NCBI GenBank assembly: GCA_018385395.1
Contig: JAHBAD010000154.1
Coordinates: forward strand, 1-39,964
Origin: Treponema sp.
Lineage (GTDB): Bacteria > Spirochaetota > Spirochaetia > Treponematales > Treponemataceae
Length of the DNA: 39,964 bases
Direction of reading: 5' to 3'
In this document: one piece after another, positions 20,178 to 35,829 of the stretch
Position numbering within the stretch: position 1 is the first letter of the stretch
Layout: each line of letters opens with the position of its first letter
Translations under genes and position numbers: made by a program
Notes under the pieces: generated by a model
Databases searched by the model: none
What the model saw: the letters and a program-made list of their open reading frames with translations, nothing else
What the model was told of the DNA's origin: nothing

Positions 20178-21227
20178 ATGTTATTCTCAGTTTATGGCGA
20201 TGCAGCCATCTATCAGATTATTGGCTGGGTTATCGTATTTGTTGGCCTCGTTCTTGCCAATGAAATCTCACGCAGAACAAAAGCCGGTGGAATCGCTGCT
20301 TTCGTAGTGCTTCCTCTTGGTCTTACAGTTTATTTTATTGCAGTTACTGTCGGAGCAAAAATGGGTGCAGAATGGGCTCTTAATAATCCTACCTATCTGT
20401 ACATGAACAGCTGGTTCCATTATGCAAAACTTTATGCAGCTACAATTGGTTGTATCGGTTTTATGGTTCTCAAATACAAATGGGGAAAACTTGGCAATGC
20501 CAACTGGTTTAAATGTTTCCCATTCCTTATCGTTGCAATCAACATTCTTATTGCAGTTGCTTCTGACTTTGAATCTGCAATTAAAGGTTCTATTGCTCTT
20601 TCAGAAACTGGTGCCCGCTGGTGGAAATCATCAGAAGGAGTATGGCTTTATGGTGGCTGGTGGAACTGGGCAAACGGTATTGCAGGTCTTATCAATATTA
20701 TGTGTATGACAGGATGGTGGGGAATCTACTCATCTAAAAAGAAGAATCAGGATATGCTGTGGCCTGATATGACAATCTGGTTCATCGTTTCTTATGACAT
20801 CTGGAATTTCACATATACATATCTGAACCTGCCAACTCATACATGGTACTGTGGTTTTGCTCTTCTTCTTGCTCCAACTTTTGCTGCAGCTTTCTGGAAC
20901 AAAGGCGGATGGATCCAGAACCGTGCAAACACACTGGCTCTCTGGTGTATGTTCGCTCAGGTATTCCCACTTTTCCAGGATCGCGGTGTATTCCATGTAG
21001 ATCCTGTTCTTTATGCTGGTGTCGAAGGTGCTGCAACAGCTGCTACTGCTCCAACTGCCGTTGATCCTCATATGCAGGGTGTAATGGCTGTTATTGCCGT
21101 ATTTGCAAACGTAATTGCACTGGCAGTAATTATTAAACGTTCTGTTGCACAGGGTAAAAATCCTTATACAAATGAAATCTTCGTTGGAACAAAAGACTAC
21201 GAAGAAGCTATGGCACGTGCTGAATAG
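20178..21227 (+). CDS. Polytopic Trp-rich membrane protein, function unknown
   Basis: 349 aa with about nine hydrophobic segments and no signal peptide cleavage site. Tryptophan is unusually frequent (ARWWKSSEGVWLYGGWWNWA, TGWWGIYSS, DIWNFTYTYLNLPTHTWYCG). From memory it may correspond to the DUF5692 family, which I cannot check. The C-terminus is cytoplasmic-looking and acidic (KDYEEAMARAE). AAAGGAG stands 7 nt before the ATG. It has its own promoter and terminator, and the flagellar operon starts 174 bp further on, so it is probably an independent unit. No catalytic motif is recognised; a carrier or sensor role would be a guess. Confidence 0.85.
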   Translation: MLFSVYGDAAIYQIIGWVIVFVGLVLANEISRRTKAGGIAAFVVLPLGLTVYFIAVTVGAKMGAEWALNNPTYLYMNSWFHYAKLYAATIGCIGFMVLKYKWGKLGNANWFKCFPFLIVAINILIAVASDFESAIKGSIALSETGARWWKSSEGVWLYGGWWNWANGIAGLINIMCMTGWWGIYSSKKKNQDMLWPDMTIWFIVSYDIWNFTYTYLNLPTHTWYCGFALLLAPTFAAAFWNKGGWIQNRANTLALWCMFAQVFPLFQDRGVFHVDPVLYAGVEGAATAATAPTAVDPHMQGVMAVIAVFANVIALAVIIKRSVAQGKNPYTNEIFVGTKDYEEAMARAE

Positions 21228-21257
21228 CCTAAATATAGAAGAAAACTGATTTTTGAA

Positions 21258-21292
21258 GGTCCTGCAGAATAACCCTGCAGGATCTTTTTTTT
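21258..21292 (+). terminator. Rho-independent terminator
   Basis: GGTCCTGCAG pairs with CTGCAGGATC (21258-21267 with 21275-21284, one G-T pair), 7-nt loop, followed by T8. It separates the membrane protein gene from the flagellar operon. Confidence 0.9.
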
Positions 21293-21300
21293 ATTTTTTC

Positions 21301-21327
21301 TAAACTTTTCTTATATTATGCCGATTT
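21301..21327 (+). promoter_or_regulatory. Sigma-28 (FliA) type promoter of the flagellar operon
   Basis: TAAACTTT (21301-21308), exactly 11 bp, then GCCGATTT (21320-21327). The sigma-28 consensus is TAAAGTTT-N11-GCCGATAA, so 13 of 16 positions match with ideal spacing. The start codon of flbD is about 75 nt downstream. Confidence 0.7.
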
Positions 21328-21401
21328 TTGAAATGACGCCGAGTATAAGATTCATATAGAAAATAATACTTGACGGAATTTAGTTAGTTTGGGAAAATTA
21401 T

Positions 21402-21602
21402 ATGATTGATGTGATTCGTTTGGATGGGGAAAAATACTGGGTGAATCCGCACATGATAGAAAGTATGGACTCTCTGCCTGATACAACATTAACAATGTTA
21501 TCAGGAAAAAAACTCATCGTTAAGAATTCTCCTCAGGAAATAATTGATAAAATAATTGCTTACCGCCGTAAGGTTGGTATTGAAGCGCAAGAGGTTTTAT
21601 AA
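21402..21602 (+). CDS. flbD: FlbD/SwrD-family flagellar protein
   Basis: A 66-aa soluble protein of the FlbD family (MIDVIRLDGEKYWVNPHMIESM, then PDTTLTMLSGKKLIV, then SPQEIIDKIIAYRR). In Bacillus the homologue SwrD raises the torque of flagellar motors, and here the gene stops directly before motA with no spacer, which supports a motor-related role. The length matches the family. Upstream TTGGGA is only a weak SD. It is the first gene of the long flagellar operon, whereas in other treponemes flgE normally precedes it. Confidence 0.88.
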   Translation: MIDVIRLDGEKYWVNPHMIESMDSLPDTTLTMLSGKKLIVKNSPQEIIDKIIAYRRKVGIEAQEVL

Positions 21603-22385
21603 ATGGATATAGCAACAATAATTGGTATCGTCGGTGGTGCCGCCATGATCGTCATGTCGGTTATGACTTCCGGTGGTTCTCTTGGAGGAATTCTCGATAT
21701 TCCTTCTGCAGCCATGACAATCGGTGGTTCTTACTTTGCTATCTGGATTGCCGCTCCTATGAAAAAGTGTCTCGGACTTTTCAAAGTTATGGGAAAGGCA
21801 TTCAAAGTTCCTGACTTCGGTGAAAAAAATATTGTAGTTAATATGCAGGCGCTTTCAGAAAAAGCCCGTCGTGAAGGTATTCTTGCACTTGAAGACGGCC
21901 TTGATGATCTGGAAGATCCTTTTATGAAAATGGGACTTCGTCTTGTTGTCGATGGTACTGACGGAAATATTATCCGTGCAGTTATGGAAAACGAAATGAA
22001 CCAGTGTGAAGCACGTCATATGTCATGGATCAATATTGTTAACCAGTGGGCTGGTTTTGCTCCTGGTTTTGGTATGATGGGTACCGTTGTAGGTCTTATT
22101 GGTATGTTGAACAACCTTGAAGATAAGTCATCCCTCGGTCCTAACATGGCCGTTGCCCTTATTACAACACTTTACGGTTCTATGATGGCCAACTGGCTTA
22201 TCACACCGTTCTCTCAGAAACTTCTGGACCAGAACGCTCAGGAAATGCGTTCTAAAGAAATGGTTATTGAAGGCGTTCTTGCTATTCAGGCTGGCGAAAA
22301 CCCACGCATTATGGCACAGAAACTTCTTACATATCTTGATCCTGTTACAAGAAAAGCTATCGAAGCTGACGTACTGAAAGACTAA
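21603..22385 (+). CDS. motA: Flagellar motor stator protein MotA
   Basis: Inner-membrane ion-channel subunit that, with MotB, drives flagellar rotation. 260 aa with four membrane segments: two near the N-terminus (MDIATIIGIVGGAAMIVMSV and a second at about 30-50) and two around 150-205 including the conserved WAGFAPGFGMMGTVVGLIGM with the channel Pro. The cytoplasmic loop between them has the charged torque-generating region. The ATG follows the flbD stop directly and motB follows after 24 bp with its own SD. Confidence 0.96.
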   Translation: MDIATIIGIVGGAAMIVMSVMTSGGSLGGILDIPSAAMTIGGSYFAIWIAAPMKKCLGLFKVMGKAFKVPDFGEKNIVVNMQALSEKARREGILALEDGLDDLEDPFMKMGLRLVVDGTDGNIIRAVMENEMNQCEARHMSWINIVNQWAGFAPGFGMMGTVVGLIGMLNNLEDKSSLGPNMAVALITTLYGSMMANWLITPFSQKLLDQNAQEMRSKEMVIEGVLAIQAGENPRIMAQKLLTYLDPVTRKAIEADVLKD

Positions 22386-22409: not shown

Positions 22410-23135
22410 ATGGGAAAGTCTAAGGAACCAGAGAAACCGTCAACTGCGTGGCAGGGTACCTACGGTGACATGATCACCCTTATGCTCTGCTTCTTCGTTA
22501 TGCTTTATAACCCTTCAGAAATAGATCCGACTCAGCTGGCAACAATCACTCAGTCTCTGCAGATGAATGAAACTGAATCAACTTCCGGTGGTTTGTCACT
22601 TTCTGCAGGACGTCTTTCGGACCTGGGAAATAATATCAATTCACTTCCTTCTCTTGAAAAAGGTAAATCTCTGGGCCTTGCAAAGAAAAAGGCAGTAAGT
22701 CTTTTTGCTCCTGATATCAAATCAAATAAAATTACTATTACAAGTGACGAACGGGGACTGATTATTACACTGGCTTCAGACTCTTTCTTTGAAGAGGGAA
22801 GTGCAACCTTGAACATTGACCAGACCCGTGACACACTTCTGCGTCTTTCAGAATTTTTTAAATCTCCTGAAATGAAAGAACGCCGGTTTAGAATTGAAGG
22901 CCATACAGATAACACTCCGGTCCCTTTCGATTCCGCTTTTTACAGTAACTGGGAACTTTCTACAGCCCGCTCTACCAATGTTCTTCACTATCTTGCAGAT
23001 TACGGAGTAGATGAAAATCAGTTTTCTGTAGCAGGTTATGCAGACACCAGACCAAAATTTTCAAACGATACGCCTGAGGCCAGAGCCTATAACAGACGTG
23101 TGGATATAATTATTCTAGACGAGGGACATTTTTAA
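22410..23135 (+). CDS. motB: Flagellar motor stator protein MotB
   Basis: Stator subunit that anchors MotA to peptidoglycan. A single N-terminal membrane segment contains the ion-binding Asp20 in [16 protein letters not shown], preceded by a short basic cytoplasmic tail ([10 protein letters not shown]). The C-terminal OmpA-like domain shows [36 protein letters not shown] and AYNRRVDI. The 241-aa length is slightly short but complete. It sits in the motA-motB-fliL order. Confidence 0.95.
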
Positions 23136-23208
23136 TGGTAAAATGTAGGGAATTCATAATATTTTCTATTCTTTTAGACATAATAAAATGTTGCTTGCTG
23201 GAGGGGAA

Positions 23209-23760
23209 ATGGCAGACAATGACGAATTAGGTCTTGATGATGGTGGAGCATCATCATCACCTGCAAAAAAAGGCAAAATGGGCGGACTTTTGCCCGGTCT
23301 TCTTAAATGGATAATCATCGCAGTCGCTGCAATCATTCTCATCGTAGTTGTTGTATTCGTTACAGTAAAAATTGCCACAAAAGGCAGTTCTGGACCTGCA
23401 GGCGGACAGCCGGCATCAGTTTCTTATACAGCCCAGCGTGAAATTCTTGACTGGTACACATCTCTTGGTGTAATTCAGACAACAACAAGTGATGATATTC
23501 CTGCTACAGTTCGTGTAGACGTAGTTTTAGGATATAAAAAGGACGATAAAGCCACTTCAACAGAAATCACACAGAGAACTGTTGAATTAAAAGACTTTTT
23601 ACGCCGATATTTTAATGGAAAAACAGCTGCAGAACTTAAAAATACTGCAAATGAAGAAAGACTGAAGATTGAACTCAGAAATGCAATCAATGACAAATAC
23701 CTTACAAGTTCAAAGATTCGTGATGTAGTTTTCCTTCAGAAAGACGTTATTGAACAATAG
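23209..23760 (+). CDS. fliL: Flagellar basal body protein FliL
   Basis: A single-pass membrane protein associated with the stators and basal body. The chosen ATG at 23209 has GGAGGGG directly before it; a longer reading from 23188 adds MLLAGGE, which simply translates that SD, so it is rejected. The 183-aa product has an acidic/Lys cytoplasmic N-terminus, a membrane segment at about 29-54 (LLKWIIIAVAAIILIVVVVF) and a periplasmic domain ending in LTSSKIRDVVFLQKDVIEQ, as in FliL. It lies between motB and fliM. Confidence 0.92.
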   Translation: MADNDELGLDDGGASSSPAKKGKMGGLLPGLLKWIIIAVAAIILIVVVVFVTVKIATKGSSGPAGGQPASVSYTAQREILDWYTSLGVIQTTTSDDIPATVRVDVVLGYKKDDKATSTEITQRTVELKDFLRRYFNGKTAAELKNTANEERLKIELRNAINDKYLTSSKIRDVVFLQKDVIEQ

Positions 23761-23793: not shown

Positions 23794-24831
23794 ATGAACG
23801 AGGTTCTGTCACAGGACGAAATTGACCAGCTTTTAACTGCCATCAGTTCAGGTGAGTCTGAAGTTGATGATTTTAAGCCGGTTTCCAGTGCCCACAAAAT
23901 TAAAATCTATGACTTTAAACGTCCTAGTAAATTCTCAAAAGAACAGCTTCGTACTATTTCGAATATGCACGAAACTTTTGCGCGTAATACTACGACCAGT
24001 TTGTCAGCCCAGCTGCGCTCTCTGGTTCATGTTCACGTTGCATCTGTAGACGAACTGACTTACGAGGAATTTATTCGTTCTATTCCTACTCCAACAACCC
24101 TTGCTGTTATTAATATGGATCCGCTTCCTGGTAACGCGGTTCTTGAAATTGATCCGACAATTTCTTTCTGTATGATTGACCGTCTGTTCGGTGGGCGCGG
24201 TGCTATTGCAGGAAACAAAAACCGTGACCTTACAGATATTGAGCAGGAAGTAATGGAAGGTGTTATTGTTCGTATTCTGGCTAACCTTCGTGAAGCCTGG
24301 ACACAGGTAATCGACCTTCGTCCTCGTTTCCAAACAATTGAAACAAATCCTCAGTTTGCTTCAATTGTTCCGCCAAACGAAATGGTCGTTCTTATCACTT
24401 TGGAAACAAAAGTCGGTGAGGAAGAAGGCATGATGAACTTCTGTATTCCTTACCAGACAATCGACCCGATTATTTCAAAACTGTCATCACAGTTCTGGTA
24501 TTCTTCGGTTCGTAAAAGTTCAACAACCCAGTATCTGTCAACAATCAAAGGACAGATCAACGATGTTGATATGGACATTGTTGCCGATTTCGGCAGCATC
24601 AATCTGCCAATCAGAGACGTTCTGGCACTTCGCGTAGGTGATGTTGTTCGTCTTTCAAATATAAAAGTTGGAGATCCTCTCTCTCTGAGTGTTGGGGATC
24701 GCAAAAAGTTTTTCTGTCAGCCGGGTGTTGTCGGAAAGAAGATGGCTGTACAGATTACAGGAAAAATTGAAGATGTAGATGCGGAAGATTTTGAGGAACT
24801 TTCCGTAGAAGGAGATGGAACATATGAGTGA
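23794..24831 (+). CDS. fliM: Flagellar motor switch protein FliM
   Basis: Part of the cytoplasmic C-ring that sets rotation direction. The N-terminal [10 protein letters not shown] is the CheY-phosphate binding peptide. The middle domain (about 45-230) is CheC-like with [19 protein letters not shown] and DRLFGGRGA. The C-terminal SpoA/FliN-like domain spans about 255-335 ([19 protein letters not shown]). The 345-aa length is normal. Its 3' end overlaps the start of fliY by 8 bp. Confidence 0.96.
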
Positions 24832-26044
24832 TGGTGCAATTTCACAGGACGAAATCGACGCTCTGCTTTCTGGCGTTTCAATGGACGGATTAAATTCTTC
24901 CGGCCAGGTTTCAAGCGGACCTGCTGCCCATATGGATGTGGCTACACTTCAGGGGCTGGCAGACGAACTTAGACCAAAACTTGAATCAAATATTAATTCT
25001 TATACAAATGCTTCTTTCACAGCTGATAATCCTGTTGTTGAAGTAGTGGACAGAGACCGTGTTCTTTCTCGTCTTCCAGAGGTAGTAGTCGGGGTAATGG
25101 CCGACTATAACGAAGGTGTAAAAGGCGAACATCTTTATCTTCTGGCTCCTGAATTTGCTCAGAAGCTTTTCTCTCTGGTTAATTCAGAAGAAGTAACAGA
25201 AGTTGATGACATGGTTCTTTCTGTTGTATCAGAAGTAATTGCAACGCATGTTAGTGCTCAGATTAACAGTCTGGACGCAACAGGAAAACTTCCGGGTCTT
25301 GCTTACGCAACACCTGAATGTGTTAATGAACCTAAAGCTATGGTGCGTTTCCCACAGGGAGATTTCGCACTTTGTACATATCCCCTTACTTTGGGCGGCG
25401 AAGCATTTACTCTTTGGGAATGTATTGCCGGAAACGTTGCTGAAAAAATGTGTAACGCTCTTGGTGGTGGTGTAGAAGATCTTTCTTCTCCTGCTATGGA
25501 CATGGGAAGTCCTATGGGCGGCATGTCTCAGCCAATGGGTGGCTCAATGGGAATGAGTCAGCCTCAAATGAACATGGGAATGGGCATGGGAATGGCACAG
25601 CCTCAAATGAACATGGGAATGGGCATGGGCATGGGGCAGCCTCAGATGAATATGGGAATGGGTATGCCACAAATGGGTATGGGTATGCCTCAGATGAATA
25701 TGGGTATGAATATGGGAATGAATGTTCCTAATGTTCAGTCCCTTCAATATCCAAATCTTCAGGGAAGTATGACCGGCGCCGAACAGGGGAATATCGGCCT
25801 GATTATGGATGTTCAGATGGAAATGACCGTAGAACTTGGTCGTACAAAAAAATCCATCAAAGAAATCCTTGGAATGGGGGAAGGTACAATCATCGAGCTT
25901 GAAAAACTTGCCGGTGAACCTGTAGACATTCTGGTTAACCATAAACAGATTGCAAAAGGTGAAGTTGTAGTTATTGACGAAAACTTTGGTGTTCGTGTAA
26001 CAGAAATCCTTTCACCAATGGAAAGAGTTTCAGATATTCACTAG
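24824..26044 (+). CDS. fliY: Flagellar motor switch protein FliY (FliN type) with Met-rich insert
   Basis: Second C-ring switch protein, 406 aa. The N-terminal [16 protein letters not shown] is again a CheY-binding type motif. Residues ~35-215 are a CheC/CheX-like domain ([32 protein letters not shown]). Residues ~225-303 are a Met/Gly/Gln low-complexity tract with 13-residue repeats ([12 protein letters not shown]). The C-terminal SpoA domain (about 320-400) begins at [20 protein letters not shown] and ends at VRVTEIL. The ATG at 24824 is preferred to 24815, because AGGAGA is 10 nt upstream of the former and only about 1 nt from the latter. It overlaps the end of fliM. Confidence 0.94.
25496..25732 (+). 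repeat. 39-bp tandem repeat coding a Met/Gly-rich tract in fliY
   Basis: Two full 39-bp units (25559-25597 and 25598-25636) and a shortened third (25637-25669), starting CAGCCTCA(A/G)ATGAA, followed by a degenerate ATGGGTATG region to about 25732. Each unit encodes [12 protein letters not shown] plus one residue. Confidence 0.85.
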
Positions 26045-26074: not shown

Positions 26075-26722
26075 ATGGTTTTCTCAAAAAAAAGTATTAT
26101 TTTCTTTGTATTGATTTCATTAATATTTTCGTGTCTGTTTGGACAGACTGTTTCTTCTTCGGAAAATGATGCTGTTAATGAAAATGAAATTACACTTACT
26201 CTTCCAGAAGCAAATTCAGAATCAAGTCTTACATTTTCAGATACAGGAAAAAAATCAACTGTATGGCCCTTCGTAAAGATGATTTTCATGCTTCTTTTAG
26301 TGGTTGCGGCAGTGTATGGTGTTATGTATTATTTTAAACGCCGTGGAACCGGGACCCGAAGTGATGATCAGTTTTTGCGCCGTGTTGCATATTTGAGTCT
26401 TGGACAGGGAAAATCAGTTGAAGTTGTTACTCTTGTAGACAAAGGGGCATATCTTCTTGGTGTTACTGAAGGCGGAATCAACCTGATTGCTGAAGTAAAA
26501 GATGAAGAACTGATTCAGGCAATGAATCTTTACGCTGATAAAACTACAAATACTTCAAAACCTAAAAACTTTGCTGATGTTTTGGATATGTTTATGCCGG
26601 GCGGTCCACGCGAAAACACAGCACCAAAAGGACGTCAGAGTACAAATGTATTCAGTGCCGGCGAACAGGATATAAATCAGATTTTCCAGGATCAGGCAAA
26701 ACGCCTTAAGGAAAATGAGTAG
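26075..26722 (+). CDS. fliO: Flagellar export protein FliO/FliZ
   Basis: Helper of FliP assembly in the flagellar type III export gate. The 215-aa chain has an N-terminal hydrophobic signal (SIIFFVLISLIFSCLFGQ), an acidic periplasmic stretch, a second membrane segment at about 66-88 (VWPFVKMIFMLLLVVAAVYGVMYY) and the FliO cytoplasmic core RRVAYLSLGQGKSVEVVTLVD. The first hydrophobic segment ends with a Cys that could be a relaxed spirochaete lipobox. GGGTGGGG precedes the ATG by ~9 nt. It sits between fliY and fliP. Confidence 0.88.
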   Translation: MVFSKKSIIFFVLISLIFSCLFGQTVSSSENDAVNENEITLTLPEANSESSLTFSDTGKKSTVWPFVKMIFMLLLVVAAVYGVMYYFKRRGTGTRSDDQFLRRVAYLSLGQGKSVEVVTLVDKGAYLLGVTEGGINLIAEVKDEELIQAMNLYADKTTNTSKPKNFADVLDMFMPGGPRENTAPKGRQSTNVFSAGEQDINQIFQDQAKRLKENE

Positions 26723-26732
26723 GGTGGACGGT

Positions 26733-27551
26733 ATGAGAAAAATCAATTTCAAAAAGATTGTCCTTGCTCTGCTACTTGTTCTTTCAGTATCTGTAGTTTC
26801 AGCCCAAAGTTTTCCGCAAGGTTCTACACGAGGAAATACCGAAATGAGTCGTAATGTGACTCAGCCTGCAGTTCCAAATGTTTCAATTCAGATTACTCAG
26901 CCTCAGACAGGACGTGAAGTTGCTTTTTCTGTAAGAGTACTTCTTGCACTTACAATATTGACAATTGCGCCGAGTCTTCTTTTACTGGTTACCTGTTTTC
27001 TGCGCTTTTCAATTGTTCTGGACTTTATTAAACGTGCTCTTTCATTGCAGCAGGTTCCGCCTACAGCAGTTCTGAATGGCATCGCTTTGTTTATGACCCT
27101 TTTTGTCATGTGGCCGACTTTTTCAACAATGTACGAAAAGTCTTTTAAGCCCTTGAACGAAGGTCAGATTGGAATAGAAGAAGCCTACCGTGAAGCCGAA
27201 GCTCCAATCCGTCTGTTTATGTATACTCAGATGGCAGAAGATCCAACTTACATCGGAACTTTTATGAATATGGCAAAACTTGAAAAACCAAATACACTTG
27301 CCGATGTTCCAACACATATTCTTGTTCCTGCATACATTCTTCATGAACTTACAGCTGCTTTTAAAATCGGTGTTCTTCTATATATACCGTTTATTATTAT
27401 TGATATGGTCGTAGCCAGTATCCTTATGTCCATGGGTATGATGATGCTGCCGCCAGTTCAGATTTCCATGCCGTTCAAACTGATTCTTTTTGTTCTGGTA
27501 GACGGATGGGGACTTCTTACCAATCAGCTTTTCCTTTCGGTAATTCACTAG
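26733..27551 (+). CDS. fliP: Flagellar export gate protein FliP
   Basis: Core pore subunit of the flagellar secretion gate. From the ATG at 26733 (SD AGGGTGGA, about 4 nt upstream) the product is 272 aa with a cleavable signal peptide MRKINFKKIVLALLLVLSVSVVSA. The alternative ATG at 26715 would overlap the fliO stop, has no SD and would add MSRVDG before the signal. FliP signatures are LLLVTCFLRFSIVLDFIKRAL, ALFMTLFVMWPTF and MMLPPVQISMPFKLILFVLVDGW (split membrane helices). Confidence 0.95.
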   Translation: MRKINFKKIVLALLLVLSVSVVSAQSFPQGSTRGNTEMSRNVTQPAVPNVSIQITQPQTGREVAFSVRVLLALTILTIAPSLLLLVTCFLRFSIVLDFIKRALSLQQVPPTAVLNGIALFMTLFVMWPTFSTMYEKSFKPLNEGQIGIEEAYREAEAPIRLFMYTQMAEDPTYIGTFMNMAKLEKPNTLADVPTHILVPAYILHELTAAFKIGVLLYIPFIIIDMVVASILMSMGMMMLPPVQISMPFKLILFVLVDGWGLLTNQLFLSVIH

Positions 27552-27562
27552 GAGCGTAGAAT

Positions 27563-27832
27563 ATGAGTACAGGTGAAATTGTAACATTGATGCGCGGAGG
27601 AATTACCCAGATTCTGGAATTGATTGCACCGTGCCTTATTGCAGCTTTGATAGTTGGCCTTATCGTAGCCATTTTTCAGGCCGTAACTTCCATCCAGGAA
27701 CAGACCCTTACCTTTCTTCCGAAACTTCTCACAATCCTTATTGTACTGGCACTTCTTGGCGGTGTTATGTTTTCGAACCTTGGGCAGTACACTGTGGCAT
27801 TGTTTTCCCGTATTCCTGATTTTGCAAAGTAA
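27563..27832 (+). CDS. fliQ: Flagellar export gate protein FliQ
   Basis: An 89-aa protein with two membrane helices (LIAPCLIAALIVGLIVAIFQ and LTILIVLALLGGVMFSNLG) joined by TSIQEQTLTFLPKL, the conserved FliQ loop. AGGAG lies about 9 nt before the ATG. It follows fliP by 11 bp and precedes fliR by 20 bp. Confidence 0.95.
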   Translation: MSTGEIVTLMRGGITQILELIAPCLIAALIVGLIVAIFQAVTSIQEQTLTFLPKLLTILIVLALLGGVMFSNLGQYTVALFSRIPDFAK

Positions 27833-27852: not shown

Positions 27853-28650
27853 ATGCTTGATTCCATCCTTCTTAAAGCACCCTATTTTCTTTTGGTTTAT
27901 GCCCGGTGCTTTACAATGATTATTACACTTCCTCTGTTTTCCATGCGTTCGGTTCCACGAGTTGCAAAGCTTGCTCTTTCTTTTTACATGGCATTCATGA
28001 TGTTTTCGGGTGTTGATTTTTCTGTTTACGAATCCGTTGTAACAGAGAACCAGGCATTTTCTGTTCAATACCTTCTCTTGGTTCTTGGGGAAGGTCTCAT
28101 CGGTGTAATAATGGGATTTTTTATTCAGATTATTTTTGCCGCCTTCAGTACTGCAGGTCAGCTTTTCGCATTCCAGATGGGCTTTTCTGCTGCTTCTGCC
28201 TATGATGCTTTAAGCCAGGTTGAAAATCCCCTTATGGGACAGTACCTGAACTTTATTGCCATGCTGGTATTCCTTCAGAACAGATGGTTCCAGAAGATTT
28301 TTATTTCAGGTCTTATGGGAAGCTTTAAGGCTCTCAGCGCTTATTCCATTGCTACAGGAACTGAATCTGTTGCCCGTTTCATGCTGAAAGGCCTTACAAA
28401 CCTTTTTGCAGATGCCTTGATTATTGCTCTTCCTGTTATGGGAACACTTCTTCTTGTTTCTATAGCAACAGGACTTCTTTCAAAAGCCGCACCTCAGATG
28501 AATCTTTTGTCTGAAGGTTTTCCGGTTATGATTCTGCTGGCGTTTTTCCTCATTCTGAATATGCTTCCTGCAATGAGTGATTTCTTTACACGTTCTTTCA
28601 ATCAGGGGCTAAAAGATTTGACAGATCTGTTTGCCACCCTTGGAAAGTAG
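27853..28650 (+). CDS. fliR: Flagellar export gate protein FliR
   Basis: A 265-aa polytopic protein that completes the FliPQR pore. Conserved features are VYARCFTMIITLPLFSMRSV, GEGLIGVIMGFFIQIIFAAF, GQLFAFQMGFSAASAYDAL and the C-terminal MNLLSEGFPVMILLAFFLIL. A strong GGGAGGTGGG lies 12 nt upstream of the ATG, with a weaker GAGAG next to it. flhB follows 10 bp downstream. Confidence 0.95.
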   Translation: MLDSILLKAPYFLLVYARCFTMIITLPLFSMRSVPRVAKLALSFYMAFMMFSGVDFSVYESVVTENQAFSVQYLLLVLGEGLIGVIMGFFIQIIFAAFSTAGQLFAFQMGFSAASAYDALSQVENPLMGQYLNFIAMLVFLQNRWFQKIFISGLMGSFKALSAYSIATGTESVARFMLKGLTNLFADALIIALPVMGTLLLVSIATGLLSKAAPQMNLLSEGFPVMILLAFFLILNMLPAMSDFFTRSFNQGLKDLTDLFATLGK

Positions 28651-28660
28651 GAGGTAGCTT

Positions 28661-29743
28661 ATGGCTGCAGAAGATGAGGGAAGAACCGAGGAACCTTCAG
28701 AATATAAACTGGAGAAGGAGCGTAAAGAAGGTCGTGTTGCAAAAACTCAGGAACTTGCCGGAAGTCTTGTTCTTCTTTTTACTGTTCTTCTGCTTTTCAT
28801 TTTAGGAAAAAGAATTTTCAACAACTGTGCTGAAATAATGATTTTCTGTTTTAATCAGGCACATGAAAAAGACCCTGTGAATGGAAATCTTTGGGAAGCG
28901 TTTCTAAATTTCTTTTTACGAATTATTCTTCCAATGGGAGTTGTAAGTTTTATTGCAGCCCTGGCAGGAAATATAATCCAGACAAGAGGCTTTCTTTTCA
29001 GCTGGAAACCTATAGAACCTAAGTTCAGTAAAATTTTACCAAAGTTCGGAGAATATTTTCGCCGTACAATCGGGTCTCTTCAGGGACTGTTTAATATTGC
29101 AAAATCTCTTGGAAAAGTTGCCCTTATTGTTTTTATTGCATATCTGCTTATCCGCAGGAATATGTGGGATATTGTTGAAACAATTTCTACAGGAAGTATC
29201 ATTTCGGCTCTTCGAAAAGTGGCTATGACCGGCGCAGAATTGATTATTATAGTTTCGGTTCTTTTTGTTGCCATTGCTATTCCTGATTATTTTGTGCAGC
29301 GTCATGAATTTATGGAAAGCTTGAAAATGACAAAGCAGGAAGTAAAGGAAGAATTCAAAGAGATGGAAGGGGATCCTCAGATGAAAGCTCAGCTTCGTGC
29401 TATGCAGCAGAGGATTTTAAGTCAGAATATTCCTAAAGCTGTAAAAGAATCAAACGTTGTTATTACTAACCCTACACATTTTTCAGTGGCTTTGAAATAT
29501 GATGAGGAAGCAGGAAATAACGCTCCGGTTGTAAATGCCAAAGGTATGGATAACGAAGCTTTATTGATACGACGCATTGCGACAGAAAATGATATTCCTC
29601 TTGTAGAAAACAAGCCTCTTGCACGCGATCTTTATCAAAATATTGATGTTGGGGAAGAAGTTCCGCCGGTTTACTGGAAAACTATTGCTCTTATCTATTC
29701 TCAACTTGCGCAGGATGAAAAAACAGATTTTCGTAAGAAATAA
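28661..29743 (+). CDS. flhB: Flagellar export switch protein FlhB
   Basis: Controls substrate switching from rod/hook to filament export. 360 aa: a charged N-terminal tail (EDEGRTEEPSEYKLEKERKEGRV), four membrane segments between about 28 and 210, and the cytoplasmic autocleavage domain with NPTH at 270-273 (VVITNPTHFSVALKYD). AGGAGGT precedes the ATG. There are 95 bp before flhA that hold a possible internal promoter. Confidence 0.96.
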   Translation: MAAEDEGRTEEPSEYKLEKERKEGRVAKTQELAGSLVLLFTVLLLFILGKRIFNNCAEIMIFCFNQAHEKDPVNGNLWEAFLNFFLRIILPMGVVSFIAALAGNIIQTRGFLFSWKPIEPKFSKILPKFGEYFRRTIGSLQGLFNIAKSLGKVALIVFIAYLLIRRNMWDIVETISTGSIISALRKVAMTGAELIIIVSVLFVAIAIPDYFVQRHEFMESLKMTKQEVKEEFKEMEGDPQMKAQLRAMQQRILSQNIPKAVKESNVVITNPTHFSVALKYDEEAGNNAPVVNAKGMDNEALLIRRIATENDIPLVENKPLARDLYQNIDVGEEVPPVYWKTIALIYSQLAQDEKTDFRKK

Positions 29744-29776: not shown

Positions 29777-29838
29777 GAAATACTAATATCTCAAAAATTT
29801 CTATACTTGAATAAAGTTTTGCTTTGGGTGGGGGCTTA

Positions 29839-31986
29839 ATGGCAAACGAAAATCGAGTCGTTGACCGTATTTTAAATTTCGTAAAACAGAGTTACATGGG
29901 CGTATTTGCCGTATTCGTAATCATCTTTATGATTATACCATGTCCGAAAGTTCTGGTAGATATAATGATGATACTGAATTTATCGGTGTGCATTATTGTA
30001 CTCTTAAGAGTTATTACAATTCCCCGTGCAGCTGATTTTGAATCTTTCCCCCGCATCATTCTTTTTCAGACTATGTTTGGTCTTGGCTTGAACATTGCAT
30101 CAACCCGTTTGATTCTTACAGGTGAAATGGTTCGCCGGGGCGGAAAATTTGTTATGCCTGGTCAAAGTAATATGGTTCAGGCTTTCGCAAGAATTGTAAC
30201 TGGAAATGACGTCGTAATAGGATTTATTATTTTTATAATTCTTATTATCGTTCAGGTAGTAGTAATTACAAAAGGTGCTACCCGTATTTCTGAAGTTTCA
30301 GCCCGATTTACCCTGGATGCAATGCAGCCGAAACTCCTTGATGTAGATAACCGTCTGAACAGTGGTGCAATTTCAGATGAAGAAGCTCAGGAACTGAAAG
30401 CTCAGATTCGTCGTGAAATAGACTTCTATTCGACAATGGACGGTGCTTCAAAGTTTGTTTCAGGAAACGTAAAGGCTGGAATTGTAATTACTGTAGTAAA
30501 CCTTCTTGGTGGCTTTATAATCGGAATGATTAAGAAGGAAATGGATTTTAATTCTGCTCTGGATTCATATTCCCGACTTACAATCGGTGACGGACTTCTT
30601 TCACAGTTGCCTTCAATGATGATTTCATTTGCAACTGGTATCCTTGTTACCGGAACAAAAACAGACGACAATCTTGCCCAGCAGGTTATCAATGATTTTT
30701 CCGGAGACGGACGCATTTACGAAATCCTCGGTGCAGTTCTCATTATTCTGGGCATTGCTCTGGGACTTAACACTCCAAGTCTCCTTATTATGCTGGTTCT
30801 TTTCGGGGCTGCCTTTATTTATGTTGGTTTCCGTATGTCAAAGAACAATACGGTAAAAGAAGCAAAGAAACTGGAACTTGCAAAGAAAGAGGCAGAAGGT
30901 TCTCAGGTTGCAGCTGTAAAGCAGCAGGATTATCCTCTTCTTGACCAGCTTTCTATTGAACTTGGTTTTGCACTTATTCCTCTTGTAGATAAAGAAAAGG
31001 GTGCTGAGCTTACCGGTCGTATTGCAAACATCCGTATGGAAGCAGCCAACGACATGGGGCTTATCGTTCCGAATATTCATATCCAGGACAATATGACTCT
31101 GGAACCTAATGAATACGTATTCAAGATTCATGGTATTGAAGCAGGGCGTGCTTCTATTAAGCTTGGTTATTATATGGCAATCAATACAAGCGGAATGTCT
31201 CTTGAAGAAATACAAGGTGAACGTACAATAGAGCCTACATTCGGACTTCCAGCCGTTTGGGTAAACGAAGAAAAACGCCAGGAGGCTGAAGAAGCCGGCT
31301 ATACAATCTGTGATCCTTCAACTGTAATGGCAACACACATTACAGAACTTATCCGTTCTAATGCGGATATTATTCTTGGCAGTGAAGAAGTTAAGAAAAT
31401 GATGGATAAAGCTGCTGAAAGATATCCTGTTCTTGTAAAAGAGGTTCTGGAGAACGCAAAAATGTCTTACGGACAGATTGAACGTATCCTTAAGAATCTT
31501 CTGGCAGAACGTGTTTCAATCCGTGGCATTGAAACCATTCTTTCTGCCATTTCAGATTATGCAGCGGTTTCAAAAGATATCTGGTTCCTGACTCAGAAAG
31601 TCCGGGAGGCACTGGGACTTCAGATTGCAAAACAGTATGCAGATAGAAATAATAAACTTCATGTAATGCTTCTTTCACAGAAACTTACAGAAATGATAGA
31701 ACGCCGGGCTTTCTATCCGAAAGACGGTTCAAAACCAATGGCAGCACTGGATCCTGTTGAAGGCAGATTATGGAAAAATTGTATTTCCGCTGCTCTTACA
31801 AGATTTCAGAATATGGTTCCAATAATTGTTTGTGAACCTGAAATCAGACAGCTTGTTCATTCCCTTTGTGAAATTGATTTGCCTGGAGTTGTAGTTCTTT
31901 CGACAAATGAATTGTATAACGCAGGCAAAAAAGTGCAGCTTGAAGTAATCGGGGAAATAGCAGAAGAAAACGAGGGAAATCAATAA
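29839..31986 (+). CDS. flhA: Flagellar export gate protein FlhA
   Basis: Large export-gate subunit that docks substrate-chaperone complexes. From the ATG at 29839 (SD GGGTGGGGG) it is 715 aa; a TTG at 29824 would only translate that SD. The N-terminal half holds eight membrane segments and the FHIPEP region (FPRIILFQTMFGLGLNIAST, GNVKAGIVITVVNLLGGFII). The C-terminal cytoplasmic domain runs from about residue 355 to the end, with ERTIEPTFGLPAVWV and NLLAERVSIRGIETILSAI. The last base of its stop overlaps the A of flhF ATG. Confidence 0.96.
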   Translation: MANENRVVDRILNFVKQSYMGVFAVFVIIFMIIPCPKVLVDIMMILNLSVCIIVLLRVITIPRAADFESFPRIILFQTMFGLGLNIASTRLILTGEMVRRGGKFVMPGQSNMVQAFARIVTGNDVVIGFIIFIILIIVQVVVITKGATRISEVSARFTLDAMQPKLLDVDNRLNSGAISDEEAQELKAQIRREIDFYSTMDGASKFVSGNVKAGIVITVVNLLGGFIIGMIKKEMDFNSALDSYSRLTIGDGLLSQLPSMMISFATGILVTGTKTDDNLAQQVINDFSGDGRIYEILGAVLIILGIALGLNTPSLLIMLVLFGAAFIYVGFRMSKNNTVKEAKKLELAKKEAEGSQVAAVKQQDYPLLDQLSIELGFALIPLVDKEKGAELTGRIANIRMEAANDMGLIVPNIHIQDNMTLEPNEYVFKIHGIEAGRASIKLGYYMAINTSGMSLEEIQGERTIEPTFGLPAVWVNEEKRQEAEEAGYTICDPSTVMATHITELIRSNADIILGSEEVKKMMDKAAERYPVLVKEVLENAKMSYGQIERILKNLLAERVSIRGIETILSAISDYAAVSKDIWFLTQKVREALGLQIAKQYADRNNKLHVMLLSQKLTEMIERRAFYPKDGSKPMAALDPVEGRLWKNCISAALTRFQNMVPIIVCEPEIRQLVHSLCEIDLPGVVVLSTNELYNAGKKVQLEVIGEIAEENEGNQ

Positions 31987-33278
31987 TGTTGGAAAATGAA
32001 GGGGTACAGAAAATAGTCAGACCGTCCTATCAGGATTGCAAGGATGCGCTTTTTAAATTGTATGGTTATGACTACACACCATTACGGCATTACGAAGTGA
32101 AAAGAAATGGATTAATAGGACTTTTTGCAAAGCCACAAATTTGCATGATGTATAAAGTTAATCCTCGTACTAATTCCGCAATGACAAAGCCTTACTCAGA
32201 CTCTGGAGCAGGAACAGATTTTCTTGCACGTATGGCAGAGTCACAGGCACAGACTGAAGAAGAAGAGCGCCTGGCACAGAATCGTGAACAGATTCTTGCT
32301 CAGCAGACTTCTACAATTGTAAATCATCAGATTAATCAGATTGATGAAGTGAAGAAAACTCTGGAGAAAATGCAGGAAATGCAGGAATCCATGAATAGAA
32401 AACTTGGTTCTTCGACAATTGCAGATAAGCATGAAACAATTGCAAGAATCGAGGAACTGCTTTCTGAAAATGAATTTTCTTTTAATTATATAAATATGAT
32501 GACTGACAAAATCCGTAAGACTTTCTCTCTGGAACAGCTTGGCGATTTTGAAATGGTTGAGCGTACAGTTGTAGACTGGATTGGTGAGTCTATCGAAATT
32601 GATAAAGGGCATCATGTTCGTCCGCCACATATTGTTATTATTGTTGGACCAACAGGGGTAGGGAAAACAACAACTCTTGTAAAACTGGTTGCAAGAGAAA
32701 TTCGTGCATCAAAAGAAAAAGACCGTTCTTACGAGTCGCGGCTTATTACAACTGACTCAATGCGAATGGGCGCACTGGAACAGTTGAAACGCTTCGGAGA
32801 AATTCTTGGACGTGATGTTGTAAAGGCTGAATCAAATGAAGACCTGGAAATTCTTATCAATAAATACAAACCTCATTGTGACGGCATTTTTATTGATACT
32901 GGAGGATACAGTCCTAATGACAGTGTTCATATCGGACGTCTTAAGGATGTAGTTTCTGTTCCAGGAATTACTCCGGATATTTATCTTGCATTTGATGCAA
33001 AAACAAAATGCAGTGATTTGAAAAATATTATGAATAATTATGAACCATTTGCTTATGGTTCAGTAATTGTTACAAAATGTGATGAATCAAAAATGTACGG
33101 AAACATAATCAGCAGTCTGTATGAAAAACACAAGGCAGTGGCTTTTGTGACTGACGGGCAGAATGCTGCAAAAAATATTGAAAAAGCAACACCACTTTAT
33201 TTCCTTGAAAAGCTTTCAGGATTTAATCTGGATATGGAACATTTAAGAGAAAAATTTTCAAACAGTGAGGAAAACTAA
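31986..33278 (+). CDS. flhF: Flagellar SRP-like GTPase FlhF
   Basis: GTPase that sets the number and polar placement of flagella. 430 aa: an N-terminal B domain, a coiled coil rich in Glu/Gln at about 75-135, and a GTPase NG domain from about 160. Motifs are VGPTGVGKTTTLVKL (P-loop, about 219-229), TTDSMRMGALEQLKRFGEIL and IVTKCDE. The G3 motif reads DTGGYSPND where most FlhF/Ffh proteins have DTAGR. It overlaps flhA by one base and precedes flhG by 2 bp, the usual partner pair. Confidence 0.95.
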   Translation: MLENEGVQKIVRPSYQDCKDALFKLYGYDYTPLRHYEVKRNGLIGLFAKPQICMMYKVNPRTNSAMTKPYSDSGAGTDFLARMAESQAQTEEEERLAQNREQILAQQTSTIVNHQINQIDEVKKTLEKMQEMQESMNRKLGSSTIADKHETIARIEELLSENEFSFNYINMMTDKIRKTFSLEQLGDFEMVERTVVDWIGESIEIDKGHHVRPPHIVIIVGPTGVGKTTTLVKLVAREIRASKEKDRSYESRLITTDSMRMGALEQLKRFGEILGRDVVKAESNEDLEILINKYKPHCDGIFIDTGGYSPNDSVHIGRLKDVVSVPGITPDIYLAFDAKTKCSDLKNIMNNYEPFAYGSVIVTKCDESKMYGNIISSLYEKHKAVAFVTDGQNAAKNIEKATPLYFLEKLSGFNLDMEHLREKFSNSEEN

Positions 33279-33280
33279 TT

Positions 33281-34141
33281 ATGGAAGAACAGGCTGAAGG
33301 ACTTAGAGAATTAATGAAAGATACTCCAAGATCCCGTAATACCCGCATCATTGCCGTAACAAGTGGAAAGGGTGGTGTTGGAAAAACTAATATTTCCGTT
33401 AATATGGCCATTGCATATGCTCAGCTTGGAAAAAAGGTAATCCTCATTGATGGAGACCTTGGAATGGCAAATGTAAACGTTCTTTTGAACGTTGTGCCAA
33501 AGTTTAATCTGATGCATGTAATTAACGGCAAAAAAACAATGAAAGAAATTATTCTGGATACGGAATTTGGAATTAAATTTATTGCCGGTGCTAATGGATT
33601 TTCAAAAATCGCAAATCTTTCTGTTGAAGAACTGAATGAATTTGCTTCTCAGTTCAGTCAGCTGGGAAGTGCAGATATAATCATTATAGATACAGGAGCT
33701 GGAATTGCAGAGAATGTTCAGCGCTTTGTTGCAGCAGCTGATGAAGTTTTTGTTGTAACAACTCCGGAACCTACAGCAATTACAGATGCTTACGGAATGA
33801 TTAAAGTTATTACAACAGAAGTTGTAGATAGACCAATCGACATCAAACTGATTGTAAACCGTGTTCATTCGGCTGACGAAGGAAAAAGAATTTCAGATCG
33901 CATTATAAATATTGTCGGTCAGTTCCTTAATCAGAAAGTGGAATATCTTGGTTGTGTTTACGAAGATAATACTGTTCAGACTTCTGTTATCAGACAGAAA
34001 CCTTTTATTGTTGTAAGTCCTACATCAAAGCCTGCAGTTTGTCTTAAGCATATTGTTGGAAAAATTGAAAAAACAGAACCGGAGACAAACGAAGGTGTAT
34101 CCAGCTTCCTTAAGAAATTTATTGGAAGAAAAGGTAAATAG
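33281..34141 (+). CDS. flhG: MinD-like ATPase FlhG (FleN/YlxH)
   Basis: ParA/MinD-family ATPase that counteracts FlhF and limits flagellar number. 286 aa, with an N-terminal DQAEG-like segment (EEQAEGLRELM, here the FlhF-stimulating motif), the deviant Walker A SGKGGVGKTN (about 28-37), Walker B LIDGDLGMANVNVLL and IIDTGAGIAENVQRF. A C-terminal amphipathic helix (SSFLKKFIGRKGK) probably mediates membrane binding. It begins 2 bp after flhF. Confidence 0.95.
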   Translation: MEEQAEGLRELMKDTPRSRNTRIIAVTSGKGGVGKTNISVNMAIAYAQLGKKVILIDGDLGMANVNVLLNVVPKFNLMHVINGKKTMKEIILDTEFGIKFIAGANGFSKIANLSVEELNEFASQFSQLGSADIIIIDTGAGIAENVQRFVAAADEVFVVTTPEPTAITDAYGMIKVITTEVVDRPIDIKLIVNRVHSADEGKRISDRIINIVGQFLNQKVEYLGCVYEDNTVQTSVIRQKPFIVVSPTSKPAVCLKHIVGKIEKTEPETNEGVSSFLKKFIGRKGK

Positions 34142-34172
34142 ATGTATAATTATGTGTTAAGGGAGGCGGAAA

Positions 34173-34994
34173 ATTAAAGACTTAAAATTTGCCGGTTATT
34201 TTGCCGGTGGTGGTTTTCTTCTTTCCCTTGTATGTAATATTTTATCCGGAGCCGGAGTGGGCAGAGTGGTACTGGAAACTCTTTTGTTTACAGTGCTTTT
34301 TGCAGGACTTGGATTCGGAATATCTTTCCTGTTCGGAAAATTTCTTGATGTCGATTCAGATTCATCGGCTGAGACAGAAGGGGTTCCTCCAAGGACAGAT
34401 AGAAATGGTCAGACCGTAGATCTTATTATTAAAGACGAAGATCTTCCGTCTGATGAAGGAACCGGACAGTATGTTGTTGGTTCGAGCCATCAGATGCTTA
34501 CGAAAGATGATGTAAGGGGTGTTTCCGCATCTCCTGCAGGTGCACAGAATGCTTATGCACGTGAACAGGCGGTAACAGATCAGGTAAAAAATGATGTTAA
34601 TGTGACCGGGGACTTTGCTTCTGGCTCAGCCGGAGCAGATAAAGAATTTGTTCCTGTTCGAAACCTGGAAACTCTTTATAATGTTTCCGGAAAAGAAGCG
34701 GTCACAAGAGATAATCCTGCTCCAGCAAGGGATGCTCCACAAATATCAGATGAAGCAACTTACGCTGCAGAAGCAGAAGAACTGGATACTCTTCCAGCAA
34801 TGGATAACCTTGGGTTTGAAAGTTCCACACCTTCGCGAGGGGGAGAAGAAGGTGTAAATAATGACACTGATTTTGCTACTGCGGGCAGTAGCGGAGGAAG
34901 CAGTCGCAGACGTTCGGAGGAATCAGCTCCGGAAGTAAAAGATGCCCCGCTTTTGGCAAAGGCAATTAGTACAATATTAGCAAATGAATCATAA
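34173..34994 (+). CDS. Flagellar-operon membrane protein, probable ATT start
   Basis: Unrecognised protein of about 274 aa between flhG and fliA. The frame is open from 34161, after a TAA at 34158, and the first stretch (KDLKFAGYFAGGGFLLSLVC) reads as a real membrane segment, followed by a second one (LETLLFTVLFAGLGFGISFL). No ATG, GTG or TTG precedes this region; an ATT at 34173 stands 6 nt after a strong GGGAGG (34161-34166). The alternative GTG at 34257 would discard the first segment. The rest is acidic, Ser/Gly/Ala-rich and probably disordered. The position matches an uncharacterised gene in other treponemal fla operons. Confidence 0.75.
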   Translation: MKDLKFAGYFAGGGFLLSLVCNILSGAGVGRVVLETLLFTVLFAGLGFGISFLFGKFLDVDSDSSAETEGVPPRTDRNGQTVDLIIKDEDLPSDEGTGQYVVGSSHQMLTKDDVRGVSASPAGAQNAYAREQAVTDQVKNDVNVTGDFASGSAGADKEFVPVRNLETLYNVSGKEAVTRDNPAPARDAPQISDEATYAAEAEELDTLPAMDNLGFESSTPSRGGEEGVNNDTDFATAGSSGGSSRRRSEESAPEVKDAPLLAKAISTILANES

Positions 34995-35028
34995 TTAAAA
35001 GTGGTTTCATTGAATAATGGTGAGTGAA

Positions 35029-35829
35029 ATGGCAGAAATTGAAGAAAACTCAGTCAATGACACAAAAGAAGAAGATCTTCTTTGGACACAGTATCGTAAG
35101 ACTCAGGATCCTGCTCTGCGCGACAAGTTTATCAGACAGTATATGCCTCTGGTAAAATATGTAGCCGGAAAAGTTTCTGTTGGTATGCCAAACTGTGTTG
35201 AATATGACGACCTGGTTGGTTTCGGTCAGTTTGGTCTTCTTGATGCAATTGAAAAATATGATCCAATAAAAAATGTAAAATTCAAGACATATGCGGTAAC
35301 CCGTATTCGTGGTGCTATTTTTGATGAACTGCGTCAGCTGGACTGGGTTCCCCGCAGTATTCGTCAGAAGTCTCGTGAAATTGAAGATGCCATCGTTTCT
35401 CTTGAATCAAAGCTTGGACGTTCTGCAACAGATTCAGAAATCGCTGGTTCTCTTAAAATGTCTGAAGATGAATATCACCGTACAATTATGAAAGTGAGTG
35501 GTACAAGTGTACTTTCTCTGAATGATGTATGGTATTCAGGTGATGACGGAGACAATGTAGCAATTGGGGATAATATCGAAGCTCCTTCAAGCCTTGAGCC
35601 GGATAAGATTGCAGAACGGGAAGAAATCAAAAAAGTAATTGCTGAAGCAATTCAGGAACTTCCTGAAAAAGAAAAAATGGTAATTGTTCTTTACTATCAT
35701 GAAGACCTTACTTTCAAAGAAATTGGTGAAGTTCTTCAGGTTAGCGAATCTCGTATTTCTCAGCTTCATACAAAAGCAAATCTCAGATTACGTGCAAAAC
35801 TAACAAATATCCGCAGAGGAATTCTCTAG
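35029..35829 (+). CDS. fliA: Flagellar sigma factor FliA (sigma-28)
   Basis: RNA polymerase sigma factor for late flagellar genes. From the ATG at 35029 (GGTGAG 5 nt upstream) it is 266 aa; an ATG at 35017 has no SD. Region 2 includes RQYMPLVKYVAGKVSVGMP, DDLVGFGQFGLLDAIEKYD and FKTYAVTRIRGAIFDELRQL; region 3 is RQKSREIEDAIVSLESKLG; region 4 has the helix-turn-helix TFKEIGEVLQVSESRISQLH. It lies in the operon that carries a sigma-28-type promoter in front. Confidence 0.95.
   Translation: MAEIEENSVNDTKEEDLLWTQYRKTQDPALRDKFIRQYMPLVKYVAGKVSVGMPNCVEYDDLVGFGQFGLLDAIEKYDPIKNVKFKTYAVTRIRGAIFDELRQLDWVPRSIRQKSREIEDAIVSLESKLGRSATDSEIAGSLKMSEDEYHRTIMKVSGTSVLSLNDVWYSGDDGDNVAIGDNIEAPSSLEPDKIAEREEIKKVIAEAIQELPEKEKMVIVLYYHEDLTFKEIGEVLQVSESRISQLHTKANLRLRAKLTNIRRGIL

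Follow-up and report, generated by a model that had tools for sequence, protein, structure and literature searches.

The window, by which we mean the whole stretch of 39,964 nucleotides analysed here, corresponds to contig C112 in a draft Treponema genome of 2.27 Mb (G000, 84% complete), and its MotA is 100%, 99% and 93% identical to the MotA of three Treponema metagenome-assembled genomes from horse faeces. It holds a run of co-directional genes from flbD to fliA (Table 1), in which the largest gap is 115 bases, or less should 34173 be the start of the flgV-like gene. The first-pass annotation of this DNA held that the operon headed by a sigma-28 site, here called P1, extends to fliA, and fliA does lie at the end of the run, 13,716 bases downstream of P1.

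Table 1. Positions of genes and predicted elements at the flbD-to-fliA operon of the window
Feature	Position	Strand	Remarks
Intrinsic terminator of upstream gene 20178-21227	21255..21297	+	13-pair stem, T tail
P1, sigma-28 promoter (predicted)	21300..21328	+	CTAAACTTT-N11-GCCGATTTT; expected start near 21334
P2, sigma-70-like element	21370..21398	+	TTGACG-N17-GAAAAT; ends 3 bases before flbD start codon
flbD	21402..21602	+	66 aa, first operon gene; PF06289, E 1.2e-25
motA	21603..22385	+	
motB	22410..23135	+	
fliL	23188..23760	+	
fliM	23794..24831	+	
fliY/fliN	24815..26044	+	
fliO/fliZ	26075..26722	+	
fliP (export gate)	26715..27551	+	
fliQ (export gate)	27563..27832	+	
fliR (export gate)	27853..28650	+	
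flhB	28661..29743	+	
flhA	29824..31986	+	TTG start as listed
flhF	31986..33278	+	
flhG (MinD-like ATPase)	33281..34141	+	
P3, internal sigma-70-like promoter (predicted)	34122..34150	+	TTGGAA-N17-TATAAT
flgV-like gene	34173..34994	+	apparent ATT start; ORF finder lists GTG 34257
fliA, sigma-28	35017..35829	+	NF004935, 399.7 bits (cut-off 343)

The gene that precedes the operon encodes a protein of 349 aa without NCBIfam match, and its terminator folds with a z-score of -4.9, none of 200 shuffled sequences being equally stable. With so strong a hairpin, at 21255-21287, just upstream, the P1 motif would open a new transcription unit. Among the 113 flbD loci described below, the 349-aa gene stands upstream of flbD in G000 and G173 only. 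At the other end of the run, the flgV-like gene appears by eye to encode two membrane helices, and its location between flhF-flhG and fliA agrees with the description of FlgV in the available part of the source (PMC11607428); its GTG form has no Pfam or NCBIfam match. The apparent ATT start is preceded by GGGAGG and recurs in G176 and G029, while genomes of the T. bryantii group have ATG at that place. In two one-contig genomes (G160:C1:1431260-1432026 and G121:C1:821086-821863), motA appears as two overlapping frames, either by frameshift or by sequencing error.

Positions 21301-21327 read TAAACTTT-TCTTATATTAT-GCCGATTT. The E. coli sigma-28 consensus is TAAAGTTT-N11-GCCGATAA, with which P1 agrees at 13 of 16 positions; it has a TAAA-type -35 box and a CCGATA-type -10 box, separated by a spacer within the range of 11-12 bases that defines sigma-28 promoters. 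The form TAAANNTT-N11-GCCGATW occurs a single time in the 2.27 Mb draft genome. Is such a match informative? Looser forms are not: TAAA-N16-CCGATA with one mismatch allowed gave 170 matches in the window's own genome versus 182 for the reversed control, and a second loose consensus scan of this genome gave 12 matches versus 11 for the reversed pattern. Since the loose consensus is as frequent as its control, the consensus by itself proves nothing; we dropped these scans as evidence and learned the sigma-28 signal of the genus from flagellin genes instead.

A search for the same motif before flagellin genes, suggested by the first-pass annotation, recovered sigma-28 sites in 36 of the 37 Treponema regions upstream of flagellin genes, and these 36 sites make up our sigma-28 matrix. 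Solitary flaB genes have, in 19/19 upstream regions, a CTAAA(C/G)-type box followed at a spacing of 11 bases by one of CCGA type, and tandem flaB genes have sigma-28 boxes with 12-base spacing in 17/18; spacer length thus differs by flaB class (L100-L136), 11 in solitary and 12 in tandem genes. P1 scores 20.6 bits on the genus matrix, inside the range of flagellin promoter scores, and none of 6,780 shuffled regions scores as high, in keeping with the claim that it matches the FliA consensus with N11 spacing. The score is 20.8 bits when flagellin sites of its own genome are omitted from the matrix, and 17.6 or 17.1 bits when the matrix is trained on a single flaB class. As a control on the genus matrix, none of 165 coding windows reached even 10.47 bits, and P1 is the sole match of at least 15 bits on either strand of the whole window.

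The site is also conserved where its surroundings are not. In the closest clade (G000, G173, G176 and G029), the motif is identical in 16 of 18 columns, versus 3 of 11 in the spacer and 12 of 40 in the flanks, so that both boxes are retained in all four genomes although spacer and flanks have diverged; the gene upstream of flbD differs within this clade as well. On a wider scale we assembled a set of 115 motA loci; flbD was recognised in 113 of them, and the two others (L208 and L221) were excluded from the counts. Within 200 bases before flbD, 40/113 loci (1.1 expected) have a sigma-28 site that scores at least the 99th shuffle percentile, and 23/113 (0.1 expected) have one that scores at least the 99.9th; 34 of the 40 fall 80-160 bases before flbD. 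The antisense strand, used as a control, has a site in 1/113 loci. At the 99th percentile, 73/113 loci have no sigma-28 site in these 200 bases.

Absence of the site is systematic in one lineage. Our MotA tree comprises 55 rows, corresponding to loci with full motA, with 60 later loci outside the tree, and it places a 26-row T. bryantii group (support 92/87, not starred) as the sister group. None of its 26 loci has a sigma-28 site before flbD; 22 have instead TTGA(A/T)(A/T)/TATAAT, and the two are never found together (0 of the 24 loci with the latter pattern). The T. bryantii group nevertheless keeps a sigma-28 site before flgB, in 23/23 tested genomes (p below 0.01). Since the flbD site is absent yet the flgB site is kept, the fliA loop would be a variable part of a conserved regulon. 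A literature search over listings and abstracts, mostly outside subscription papers, returned no published report of sigma-28 sites before treponemal flgB or of a variable fliA loop. What is new here is this natural contrast, in which the predicted sigma-28 site of flbD is absent from the T. bryantii group and that of flgB is retained.

Predicted sigma-28 sites reach well beyond flagellin genes. The rod gene flgB is preceded by one in 56/59 genomes (the misses are G016, G028 and G073), as judged against a simple shuffle null of 2,360 regions. So is the tap1/fliK-flgD-flgE operon of G000, and likewise tap1 in G073 and G091; G078 has no sigma-28 site before tap1 at 12 bits. Of the 12 loose-consensus matches of the window's own genome, used only to look at the neighbouring genes, eight precede flaB2, flbD, flgB, tap1/fliK, a flgN-like gene (assigned by position, with no Pfam match), a rod-binding flgJ-like gene, an FtsK-like gene and a SPOR-domain gene; two more precede unassigned genes, and the last two are intragenic. 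The fliF operon has no sigma-28 site of at least 10 bits in 4/4 close genomes, and reads TTGCAT-N16-TATAAT (box identified by eye). With predicted sigma-28 sites at flgB, tap1 and flagellin genes and a sigma-70-like fliF operon, early, middle and late genes are not separable by sigma factor as they are in enterics, and the initial description of sigma-28 as a late-class factor is not supported for these operons. FlgM was found in G173, G176 and G029, and was not found in G000, an 84% complete draft. Sigma-28-like sites at L233, L239 and L241 of the window's own genome thus stand before genes outside the flagellar set: the FtsK-like gene, which was named by eye and has no Pfam match, the SPOR-domain gene, which matches PF05036, and a gene that by eye resembles an HD-domain phosphodiesterase.

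P1 does not appear to be the only start point of the operon. The 29 bases of P3, at the junction of flhG with the flgV-like gene, are identical in G176 and G029; its -10 box is not part of the flhG reading frame, and the sequence after this box has diverged. At the same junction G015 and G146 carry TTGACA-N17-TATAAT. Among 11 junctions inspected, seven fit the search expression (W, L314, L315, L316, L317, L318 and L323), one is plausible by eye (L322), two are doubtful (L320 and L321) and one shows nothing (L319). Taken alone, P3 does not exceed chance expectation: a scan of 15 kb gave 38 sites versus 33.2 expected. From its place 0.9 kb before fliA, it could supply FliA independently of P1.

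The element P2 lies at the flbD start. Near this start codon, TTGAC-N18-(C/G)A(A/T/C)(A/T)AT is found in 53/113 loci, compared to a shuffle mean of 0.03 and maximum of 1, and TAC precedes its TTGAC in 39 of the 53. As an element of a wider regulon P2 was rejected: of four genome matches, only that of flbD precedes a recognised flagellar gene. In 37/53 loci the -35-like box starts 35 or 37 bases before the ATG, and flbD is without a Shine-Dalgarno-like sequence in 49/53 (motA has one in 100/113). The window flbD likewise has no clear Shine-Dalgarno sequence. Spacing and placement of P2, together with an flbD lacking a Shine-Dalgarno sequence, fit a leaderless flbD transcript, and we read P2 as a putative housekeeping-type promoter giving such a message, with two caveats: its -10 is atypical, the first base being G or C in 55/61 loci with any TTGAC, which is unusual for sigma-70, and the distance from the -35-like box to the ATG is 32 in the window clade. 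With only 3 bases between P2 and the ATG, its start in the window would fall inside flbD. These same caveats, and the absence of the full P2 pattern from 14 of the 40 loci that carry a sigma-28 site, speak for a different arrangement, in which P1 is genuine and the only start at the operon head, P2 serves as a conserved leader or operator rather than a promoter, and P3 is the sole source of basal FliA. We think this unlikely, given that P2 is placed and spaced relative to the ATG like a -35/-10 pair and that flbD mostly lacks a Shine-Dalgarno-like sequence where motA has one.

Other doubts concern P1 itself. It could be a weak or decaying relic, with sigma-70 effectively in charge of the operon, as it probably is in the T. 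bryantii group. The complete lack of the site in that sister group would fit, as would the deletion of PD3 in B. subtilis, which had no effect on swimming in a swrA+ strain according to the available text (PMC3874003). However, a relic would hardly keep its boxes in 4/4 clade genomes while the spacer changed, nor a score within the flagellin promoter range, and we regard this reading as quite improbable. That P1 should be a chance match is harder still to believe: loose consensus forms are indeed not enriched genome-wide, but the matrix score, the position, the conservation across genomes and the controls all argue against chance.

The best reading of the flbD-to-fliA operon is probably a sigma-28 feedback loop supplied with basal housekeeping promoters. 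What we observe directly is a set of conserved sites and an order of genes; from these we infer polymerase use of the sites, read-through to fliA and the feedback itself. The operon would have two start points in front, P1 and P2, and one inside, P3. The housekeeping-looking P2 and P3 would supply basal FliA and the export gate, and P1 would be read by RNA polymerase carrying FliA; once some free FliA is present, P1 may boost the whole operon including fliA and so close a positive loop, with FlgM, which the close relatives have, as its likely gate. FliA would also read the rod, hook and filament operons, which would make it the main flagellar sigma factor rather than merely a late one, while the fliF operon appears to remain under sigma-70. 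A sigma-28-type P1 at the head of a co-directional run in which no gap exceeds 115 bases predicts a positive loop that takes in the export gate, and to this extent the loop proposed at first stands. Sigma-28 as sole driver is not supported: a conserved sigma-70-like P2 lies at the flbD start and P3 lies before the flgV-like gene and fliA.

Several known systems resemble this arrangement in part. In E. coli, fliAZY has class 2 and class 3 promoters, so that fliA is controlled both by an early promoter and through its own sigma factor, as we predict here; the E. coli export-gate genes, in contrast, lie in other operons and are activated by FlhDC. The treponemal fla operon of T. phagedenis and T. 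pallidum, from the work of Limberger in 1996, reportedly has a promoter, Pfla, before tap1 that is similar to class II/III motility promoters. Starting at flbD, called orf4 there, it comprises the same genes as here, and the sigma-28 site before tap1 in G073 and G091 is a further likeness. Unlike it, the genes are split in the present genome: tap1-flgD-flgE lies on contig C144 with its own site, and flbD has its own predicted sigma-28 promoter. Directly upstream of flbD in the window there is no flgE but the gene for the 349-aa protein.

The closest working analogue is the fla/che operon of B. subtilis, which has PA and PD3 in front and sigD as its penultimate gene in the available portion of the paper (PMC3874003). 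The two share a large flagellar operon with a distal sigma-28-type gene, with housekeeping and sigma-D promoters at the head in B. subtilis. They differ in their first genes and in phylum, and in Treponema P2 sits right against the first start codon, and presence of the predicted sigma-28 site varies by species. The logic is thus shared, and any uniqueness implied by the first-pass annotation is not supported; the same partial source describes positive feedback in B. subtilis only in strains without SwrA (PMC3874003). Among spirochaetes, T. denticola has FliA and FlgM, and the accessible part of one study gives flaB2 a mapped sigma-28 promoter with CCGATAA and assigns flaB1 and flaA to sigma-70 (PMC9481697). 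The flaB1 assignment departs from our finding of a sigma-28 site in 17/18 tandem flaB regions of the genus. For Leptospira, the genes that the available section of a review assigns to sigma-28 are limited to filament genes and fliS (PMC12655853).

Whether FliA is a general flagellar sigma factor in this Treponema group seems to us evenly balanced. If it is, FliA promoters would serve the rod (flgB), hook (tap1-flgD-flgE), export-gate and filament operons, housekeeping-type promoters would be confined to fliF and to the basal starts of the fliA operon, and the loop would be closed or open by species, closed in the horse-gut clade and open in the T. bryantii group. The usual teaching is that early flagellar genes come first and sigma-28 genes last. 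If the sites work, rod, hook and export-gate genes are also under sigma-28, and the role of FlgM as a checkpoint would not be the enteric one. Such a role, if true, bears on T. denticola, in which loss of FlgM lowers flagellin expression according to the accessible part of the review (PMC12655853). An open and a closed fliA loop in neighbouring species would offer a ready comparison.
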